From Desulfobacteraceae bacterium (GTDB lineage: Bacteria > Desulfobacterota > Desulfobacteria > Desulfobacterales > Desulfobacteraceae), in assembly GCA_021107575.1 (NCBI GenBank), contig JAIOSM010000314.1:1-38028 (forward strand): 38,028 nucleotides of DNA. The letters run 5' to 3'. Of this stretch, positions 33,781 to 38,028 are shown in pieces; the stretch's first letter is position 1, and the number at the start of each line of letters is the position of its first letter. The position numbers were made by a program, and so were the translations under genes. Under the pieces are notes generated by a model, which was not told where the DNA came from, made no database searches, and saw only the letters and a program-made list of their open reading frames with translations.

Positions 33781-35489
33781 TTAAATTATCCCGGCAATTA
33801 TTCCGGCGATAATATAATTAAATTCAATAATAAATCTAAATTGCATTCTGGATTTAATATTTTCTTTATCAATGACTATAGTAATATATAACATTAATAA
33901 CGGCAGGATTACAAGAAAAAACCCTAAGTTATGTATCATTTTAAAAAGAGAAGTCACAATCAGAACAACAGATATTGAAACTAAAACCTGTTTTATAATG
34001 AGAATACTTTTTTTTTCGCCGACAAAAGTGGGTACAGTTTCCTTGCCCGTGATTCTATCGCCCTGTATTCCTAAGATGTCGAGTAATGCAGTAGTGGCGA
34101 AAACAAGTCCTGTGGAAAAAGTAAATGCAATGGCAGAAGATATGATATTGCCTGAATTCGATATAGCAGGAAGAATTGAAGTTACTGTTCCCCATGCTGT
34201 GGCAATAAGAACGGTCTTTGCACCAGGTATGTCTTTTATTCGTTGTATTTTTTTAATTCCCAGAAAAGGCGGCACTATTTTTAAGTTATATGAAAGGCCC
34301 AGGATACTCATTACAAAGAGTAAAGAAAAAGAGGCGATGCCGGTTGTAAAAGATAAAAAAAGACCAGTGGCCCCAAAAATGCACGTTATGACGGCAAAAA
34401 GAATATAATTGTTTTTGTATAGCTCTGCTCTGTCAGGGTTATTATATCTGTCAGATTTTATGGCAAAAAGATTGTTTAAGACTTGCATGGATAAAATATA
34501 AAAAAAAGCAATTGCAGTATGAATAAAAATATTTTCAAAGTTTTGAATTTTTGAACAAGCATAGGTCATACAGCCTGCGCCAACAGACAACATTATATTG
34601 GTGTGTAAAAGAAAATCTCTTATTTTGAATAAAGCATTTGAGACTCTGTTTTTTTTCTGCAGCTTCTTTTCAATCTCTCTGTATGCCTTGCTGATTATCC
34701 AGTTGGGCGTTGATGCTCCCGCGGTAATTGCAATGGATTGAGCAGGGGATAACAAAGAAAGATCAAGCTCTGAAATATCTTCAACATGGAAAACTATTTT
34801 GCCTGTTTTAGTAGCAATCTTAAAAAGTCGTTTGGTATTGCCACTCTGTTTCCCGCCAAGGACAATTATGGCATCATTTTTATCTGCAATATTACGAGTT
34901 TCTATCTGTCGTTTTTCAGTAGAGTTGCAAATTGTGTTGAATATTTTATAGTTAGGATGTTTTGTTTCTACCCATGTTTCTATTTTGTTAAAAAAGATAG
35001 TATCCTGTGTTGTCTGGGCGACAATTACAGCTTTATCAAAATCAGGGAGCATATCAAGTTCTTCCATATTAGACACTATATGCCCTTTTCCGTGTGAATA
35101 GCCTACGAGGCCTTTGACTTCAGGGTGGTTTTTGTCTCCTATGATTAATACAACATAGTCTTTTTTGGCGTGTTTCTCAATAATAGATTGTACCATAATT
35201 ACCCGTGGGCAGGTTGCATTGATAACTTTGAATCCGGCATCCCATAAGGCTTTCTTTTCTTTTGGAGGTATTCCATGGGCTCTTATTAAAACTATGCCTT
35301 TGCTGTTTTCAGGAATTTGATTAAGTGTGGAGATGCCTTTTTGGGCAAGAACATCCATAACCTGGGGATTGTGTATTAAAGGTCCATATGTATAAAGTGA
35401 ATCAGAAGATGTATTTGAAGCATCAAGAGCCATTTCCACAGCTCGGCGTACGCCCATGCAAAATCCGGCTGTTTGTGCAACCGTTATTT

Positions 35490-35493
<4 letters not shown>
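33781..35493 (-). CDS. ispH: Fusion protein: 4-hydroxy-3-methylbut-2-enyl diphosphate reductase (IspH/LytB) + UbiA-like prenyltransferase membrane domain
   Basis: N-terminal IspH: AQTAGFCMGVRRAVEMAL, TYGPLIHNPQVMDVLAQKGI, IRAHGIPP, NATCPRV, ICNSTEKRQ, ITAGASTPNWII. C-terminal about 270 aa is polytopic with UbiA-like Asp motifs NNLFAIKSDRYNNPDR and LDILGIQGDRITGKETVP. Confidence 0.92.
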
Positions 35494-37120
<1,627 letters not shown>

Positions 37121-37197
37121 TTAATTTCAATATCATAGTTTGAAAATCAGAGCAATTTTTTTTAAATTTTTAAAGAGCATTTTTTAAAAGAAAAATT

Positions 37198-37240
37198 AAA
37201 ACCCGGTACAGAATAAGCCTGTCCGGGTTTTAATTTTTTT
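37198..37240 (-). terminator. Bidirectional-looking hairpin terminator downstream of the CCG-domain Fe-S gene
   Basis: AAAACCCGG (37198-37206) and CCGGGTTTT (37223-37231), inner ACAG/CTGT, T-rich flanks on both strands. Confidence 0.8.
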
Positions 37241-37260: not shown

Positions 37261-38028
37261 TTACATTTCTGATTCCGGATGAAATACATCGACTCCTTTT
37301 AGGTCATCACCAAGGTATTCACGTTCGTTTGGACCTAGGATACCAAGAGACAGGCAAAGTAATGTCCACATATGAACCACAGGATAATTGCCACCATAAT
37401 GCTCGCTCAGTTCATGGATCTGAGCATGACAATTATGACAAGCTGCAATACAGTAATCAGCTCCTGTTGCCTTTATCTGGTTATCTTTGATTTTTCCATA
37501 TTCAAGCCTTTCATCTTTAAATCCTGACTGTAGGAATCCACCACCACCACCGCAACAGAAGTTGTTAGATTTATTTGGTGTCATGTCAACAAAATTTTCT
37601 TCACCAACAACTGATTTTACAACAAATCTTAAATCATCAGCAATTGAATCTCCATATGATTTACGTACAATCTGACAAGGGTCTTGAACTGTAAATTTGA
37701 TTTTTAAATCTTTGTTCCAGTCTGAGCTTACCTTAAGCTTTCCTTCCCGAATCCATTTTGCGTAATATTCATAGATATTTTTGATTTCAACTTTATGGTC
37801 TATGTTAAATTTTTTCTGTCCTGCCAGGACAGAGAATGTAACGTGCCCTCACTCAGTGTTGAGGTAGGTCTTACACCCGAGTTTATCTGCCTGGTTTAAC
37901 GTTGTTCTTGCAAGATGCTCCCAGGCCTCATCATCAGCAAGGAACATACAGTAATTTTCTCCTCCCCAGCCTTTACTGCCATATGTCCAGCTTACACCGG
38001 CCTTATGAAGGATTTTCCAGAGAGGGAC
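37261..38028 (-). CDS. CCG-domain Fe-S oxidoreductase (HdrD/DsrK-like), probable selenoprotein with in-frame TGA (Sec) at 37849-37851; 5' end beyond the window
   Basis: One frame reads VPLWKILHKAGVSWTYGSKGWGGENYCMFLADDEAWEHLARTTLNQADKLGCKTYLNTE[TGA]GHVTFSVLAGQKKFNIDHKVEIKNIYEYYAKWIREGKLKVSSDWNKDLKIKFTVQDPCQIVRKSYGDSIADDLRFVVKSVVGEENFVDMTPNKSNNFCCGGGGGFLQ...ACHNCHAQ...ESEM. The TGA is the only stop. The ORF track shows only 37261..37584. Confidence 0.85.
37815..37833 (-). promoter_or_regulatory. Candidate bacterial SECIS hairpin downstream of the in-frame TGA
   Basis: Minus-strand UCUGUCCU-GGC-AGGACAGA: perfect 8-bp stem, 3-nt loop with G in the first two positions; 23 nt lie between the UGA and the loop. 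Confidence 0.7.

Follow-up and report, generated by a model that had tools for sequence, protein, structure and literature searches.

At one end of a contig from a Desulfobacteraceae draft genome, a minus-strand reading frame is open except for one TGA. The locus raises the question of whether this codon ends a protein or is read as selenocysteine (Sec) and, if the latter, what kind of selenoprotein is encoded and what it might do. The window, meaning the whole stretch of DNA that was analyzed, is 38,028 nt long and represents the entire contig (G000:C251). The draft genome comprises 3.9 Mb in 526 contigs, and the assembly, a MAG, is 91% complete.

The in-frame TGA and its column in homologues

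The frame runs from 38028 to 37264 on the minus strand, contains a single internal stop, the TGA at 37849-37851, and is closed by a TAA at 37263-37261. The TGA lies in the context KTYLNTE-TGA-GHVTFSVL, and homology to related proteins runs on past it in the same frame. Read-through translation and homology confirmed the claim of an earlier note on this DNA that protein-like sequence is present on both sides of this one TGA. At 37261-38028 (minus strand) lie the last 255 codons and the TAA of a predicted selenoprotein gene whose product is HdrD-like (an HdrC+HdrB fusion). The 5' part, ∼184 N-terminal codons, is missing because the contig ends there, which is a matter of assembly and not of the choice of window. 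A complete gene was found in the genome of a genus mate (G004), encoding a 439-aa protein that is 92% identical and has the TGA at the same site. The predicted Sec, within the motif NTE-U-GH, is residue 60 of the fragment and residue 244 of the genus-mate protein, and it follows the Cys of GENYCMF by 33 residues, the distance given in the earlier note. As also foreseen there, standard gene calling shortens the protein to an ORF of only 107 aa (37261-37584).

To assign a meaning to the TGA, we compared the same column across homologues. Exactly one internal TGA is present in 43 of the 44 homologues with at least 78% identity (59 genomes of the GTDB family searched), and the TGA is found in all 80 named Desulfobacterales loci. 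Among loci where the motif was located, 128 of 136 instances read NTEUGH while the other 8 read NTECGH with TGC; all 103 distinct Sec genes have NTEUGH. A search for Cys opposite the TGA, proposed beforehand as a check, returned Cys or Sec at this column in homologues. Sec-free paralogues have Cys (TGC), and Cys is also found in HmcF and TmcB of the same genome. A TAG reported within one homologue (G009:C3) was rejected as a recoded stop at the Sec column, as that gene reads NTECGH with TGC.

A nonsense change (pseudogene, sequencing error or ordinary stop) might be suspected in a single draft MAG whose hairpin is not significant alone, but the TGA recurs, with a covarying SECIS, in over 100 distinct genes of many genera, from isolate genomes as well as MAGs; TGA conservation across homologues rules out a pseudogene or sequencing error, and the explanation as a whole has next to no probability. 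Comparison at this column supports the prediction that the gene encodes a bacterial selenoprotein. Its UGA is almost certainly decoded as Sec by SelA, SelB, SelD and tRNA-Sec via the SECIS hairpin described below.

A second Sec copy, 59% identical, is located on contig C246 of the source genome. This paralogue (L004 / L057 3482-4765) has its own SECIS hairpin and lies directly downstream of an MTHFR-like gene, at the contig end. In the relative G033, the arrangement of an MTHFR-like gene and a Sec-HdrD gene runs on into a 1477-aa HdrA/HdrL fusion. Additionally, Desulfamplus and its relatives (L070 / L078 / L093) carry a tandem pair of Sec-HdrD genes with a UGA in both. Because standard gene calling truncates such selenoprotein genes, counts of electron-transfer proteins in marine sulfate reducers come out too low; several such copies are present in one Desulfobacteraceae genome.

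The hairpin past the UGA and the decoding machinery

A bacterial SECIS hairpin, UCUGUCCU-GGC-AGGACAGA, is located at 37815-37833 (minus strand). It has an 8-bp stem and a GGC loop at 37823-37825, and the 23 nt from the UGA to the loop agree in sequence and spacing with what had been claimed for it. Single-sequence folding of the window hairpin gave an MFE of -11.2 kcal/mol (z = -1.57), and 14 of 200 shuffles folded equally well. Because this energy is not significant, the comparative test alone counts for the hairpin. An Rfam scan of the window produced no match at curated thresholds.

In the comparative test, a 7-bp core with at most one mismatch is present in all 103 distinct Sec genes and is perfect in 85 of them, with the loop always 23 nt past the UGA. 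Paired cells numbered 811 of 927, compared to 743 ± 6 (maximum 764) after dealing the 3' arms anew among the sequences, and pairing fell to 19–42% when the partner was slid by 1-3 nt. Compensatory changes occur at several stem pairs: one is found as A-U, G-U, G-C or U-A, the next as G-C or A-U, and the closing pair as G-C, U-A or G-U. The first loop base is G in all Sec genes. The hairpin is lost in 8 Cys genes, where no more than 2-5 of the 7 pairs survive. Within the window itself, a Leu CTG to Gln CAG change is offset by a synonymous change in a Ser codon (TCA to TCT) that restores the stem pair. Because a change in the protein is matched here by a silent one, the hairpin RNA appears to be under constraint independent of the protein.

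On the 115-row tree, three changes between Sec and Cys are needed. One Cys copy lies inside the main Sec clade (G016, L062 7785-9101) and shares 82% identity with the Sec protein of the genus mate. This copy has TGC for TGA and a decayed hairpin. It is likely a Sec-to-Cys reversion and looks as Sec loss should.

The source genome encodes most of the machinery that had been listed as a check on the selenoprotein reading. Matches were found for selA (613 bits), selB (356 bits) and selD (361 bits; G000:C143:2121-3044), the last of which is itself a selenoprotein gene with one in-frame TGA. In contrast, no selC turned up in the draft, whether sought with the Rfam model, with the genus-mate sequence or by running ARAGORN around selA and selB, while the genus mate and four other family relatives each have a tRNA-Sec scoring 73–79 bits against the Rfam model. 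ARAGORN confirmed the tRNA-Sec in all four relatives scanned with it. Separately, two RNase P RNA genes were detected in the source draft genome (G000:C388:1462-1842 and G000:C69:2726-3084, with 309 and 249 bits, respectively), hinting that the bin may be contaminated or contain more than one strain.

Protein identity and the surroundings of the selenocysteine

Pfam assigned two-[4Fe-4S] ferredoxin-type domains and the CCG domain PF02754 (1.5e-11) to the protein. A profile search of solved structures found HdrC at the N-terminus and both HdrB and EtfD at the C-terminus. An AlphaFold model of moderate quality (pLDDT 70, pTM 0.76), usable for fold assignment only, had HdrB as its best Foldseek fold match (E 1.7e-6, TM 0.63 by target). 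The protein is HdrD-like, a soluble chain in which an HdrC-like two-[4Fe-4S] domain is fused to an HdrB-like one comprising two CCG halves, and the likeness to HdrD suggested by the earlier note held in both domains and fold. HdrD has an N-terminal HdrC-type dicluster domain and a C-terminal HdrB-type CCG domain, both present here, together with two complete five-Cys CCG motifs, of which only the second is complete here. Because the first motif keeps just one Cys plus the Sec, we name the protein HdrD-like, not HdrD. It resembles HdrB/HdrC of HdrABC-MvhAGD (PDB 5ODC) in the HdrC-type dicluster domain and the HdrB fold with CCG motifs, but is one fused chain with a degenerate first CCG motif, in which Sec replaces the first CxxC cysteine.

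In NCBIfam, the fragment is matched best by TmcB, HmcF and DsrK, with which it has the C-terminal CCG architecture and the ECGH motif in common, and it might be taken for a Sec version of one of these cytoplasmic subunits of transmembrane electron-transfer complexes. However, the NCBIfam scores separate them well. The full-length genus-mate protein reaches 175.8 bits for TmcB (NF045724, at least 735 needed), 169.2 bits for HmcF (NF045711, at least 750 needed) and 122.2 bits for DsrK (NF045796, at least 400 needed, plus a dsrMKJOP operon), and all three were rejected. A true HmcF (922 bits) and a true TmcB (799 bits), having Cys where the window protein has Sec, occur in the same genome as the full-length query. 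Genes for cytochromes or membrane complexes were not seen next to the Sec gene, and no dsr genes were recognized beside it in the genus mate. We consider this identity very unlikely. Because it fails, HdrD-like is the right level of naming, and the DsrK-like character noted earlier is reduced to a distant likeness.

Selenoproteins of this kind have been described previously. Zhang et al. 2006 included Fe-S oxidoreductase (GlpC) among the selenoprotein families of Deltaproteobacteria and gave its five-gene operon as glpC-hdrA-frhD-frhG-frhA (PMC1794560). A 2026 review gives the family motif as UGH (PTHR43551; reference WP_174406253.1) and credits it to Kryukov & Gladyshev 2004 (PMC13188914). 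The genome paper of Desulfobacterium autotrophicum HRM2 reported a Sec-HdrD, HdrD4 (PMC2702500), which by its description is likewise a soluble HdrD-type (HdrC+HdrB homologous) Sec protein of the Desulfobacteraceae. The GlpC family, found in Desulfotalea, Syntrophobacter and D. vulgaris among the Deltaproteobacteria, shares with the gene studied here and its relatives a Sec in U-G-H of a CCG-type Fe-S protein and hdrA neighbors. The window protein is a CCG-type (PF02754) Fe-S protein with Sec in U-G-H and, as judged by motif and domain, its gene belongs to the GlpC UGH selenoprotein family. Because this family and the HRM2 Sec-HdrD were already described, the gene is another member of a known family.

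The second CCG motif is complete (C118, C158-C159, C197 and C200 of the fragment; 37429-37677, minus strand), as indicated by PF02754, motif spacing and the HdrB and EtfD alignments, and would be the site of a noncubane [4Fe-4S] cluster. In the degenerate first CCG half, C211 and Sec244 are all that remains. C211 (Cys27 of the fragment; 37948-37950, minus strand) never varies within the Sec/Cys subfamily, unlike in TmcB and HmcF, and is a candidate Sec partner. H246 (His62 of the fragment; 37843-37845, minus strand) is also invariant; its counterpart in EtfD is His583, which ligates the noncubane cluster there.

In mycobacterial EtfD (PDB 9OJN), a linear [3Fe-4S] cluster is ligated by Cys581 and Cys584, and the noncubane cluster of the second motif has His583 as its cap (PMC13083937). 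Both proteins have two CCG halves, and the U-G-H-x of the window protein aligns with C581-P-H583-C584 of EtfD in what is a weak alignment (31.8 bits). EtfD differs in having a membrane domain, which the window protein lacks, and in the window protein Sec stands for Cys581 and a non-Cys residue for Cys584. Thus, the earlier suggestion that Sec replaces a cluster-ligand Cys stood in part: the column does align with the ligand Cys581, but the next cysteine of the CxxC is missing here. The protein would hold one noncubane [4Fe-4S] cluster, in the second CCG half, with the invariant His of U-G-H probably serving as its remaining ligand, as His583 does in EtfD. Because the first half keeps only one Cys and the Sec, we infer that the selenolate would adjoin this single, probably His-capped cluster, either as a redox-active group or as an iron ligand.

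Gene neighborhood and proposed function

Downstream of the stop, at 37190-37232 (minus strand), a terminator-like inverted repeat, AAAACCCGG...CCGGGTTTTA, followed by a T run was read directly from the sequence. Because of this repeat, the transcript of the Sec gene is suggested to end before parA. Past the repeat, the window continues with parA/parB, ispH-ubiA and fapA-like genes. The genus-mate Sec gene sits between a DEAH helicase gene and parAB, and no redox partner gene was seen beside it.

Other relatives have a different neighborhood. Within ∼4.5 kb of the 80 named Desulfobacterales loci, matches were found to HdrA-type (32), MvhD-type (26), MetF (21) and MetV (15) proteins. The order hdrA-mvhD-hdrA-mvhD-SecHdrD-metV-metF is present in Desulfosudis (L151) and others, hdrA-mvhD-SecHdrD-metV-metF in Desulfonema magnum (L079), and metV-metF-qmoA-like-qmoB-like-SecHdrD in L108, L136 and L146. 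The GlpC family differs by its glpC-hdrA-frhD-frhG-frhA operon from the window copy, which is stand-alone, and from the nearest operonic relatives, which are found with metVF. The open-licence literature searched held no description of a metVF-linked arrangement of the Sec protein. Many copies, like that of the window, are stand-alone. A short contig of the source genome (C217) carries metV-metF-qmoA-like without an HdrD gene and ends inside the qmoA-like gene, so that one may still follow beyond the contig end. The metV-metF-qmoA-like cluster of the relatives G002 and G016 stops after qmoB-like, also without an HdrD gene.

A similar linkage is found in acetogens. In Sporomusa, MetVF physically interacts with HdrA, HdrB and MvhD (PMC9430772). 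The HdrCBA-MvhD-MetVF system of Sporomusa and Moorella links metVF to Hdr and MvhD proteins as in relatives of the window gene, but HdrB and HdrC are separate proteins there (PMC9430772), whereas the window protein is one fused chain carrying Sec. The likeliest role of Sec-HdrD would be that of an HdrBC-type electron module in a complex of MetVF with HdrA/QmoAB-like and MvhD-like proteins, a methylenetetrahydrofolate reductase that would work like the acetogen system. In the lineage of the window, where the genes are unlinked, stand-alone Sec-HdrD would supply the HdrD subunit to the metVF cluster from a distance. Based on gene order in relatives, we give this role an even chance.

The stand-alone copy might instead serve a partner other than MetVF, such as a thiol/disulfide or persulfide carrier (for example DsrC), ETF, or other HdrA/HdrL complexes, with the Sec itself being real. 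Most Desulfobacteraceae copies examined are stand-alone, including that of Desulfobacter latus, and the genus Desulfobacter is known for oxidizing acetate via the citric-acid cycle; furthermore, paralogues adjoin HdrL, MvhD and FrhB-like genes. However, the sole recurrent neighbors of the subfamily are hdrA/qmo-like, mvhD and metVF, and MetV-type proteins are encoded in all 59 family genomes searched. A partner other than MetVF is thus a serious, if minority, possibility.

Returning to the MetVF complex, the best explanation of the locus as a whole, which we regard as quite probable, is a UGH-family Sec-HdrD-like protein that is decoded through its SECIS, probably holds Sec beside a noncubane cluster and may act as a module of that complex. 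More tentatively, and rather unlikely in its full detail, the Sec in the emptied first CCG half may be a redox-active selenolate, or ligate iron, next to a noncubane [4Fe-4S] cluster capped by His; the protein would then belong to a methylenetetrahydrofolate reductase complex of the Hdr type, with its HdrD subunit encoded away from the other genes. If true, selenium would here act at a noncubane cluster, a use of which the open-licence literature searched gave no description.

The window also encodes, at 33781-35493 (minus strand), a 570-aa fusion of IspH (LytB) and a UbiA-type prenyltransferase. The same fusion is found in G004 and G033, where it adjoins parAB.
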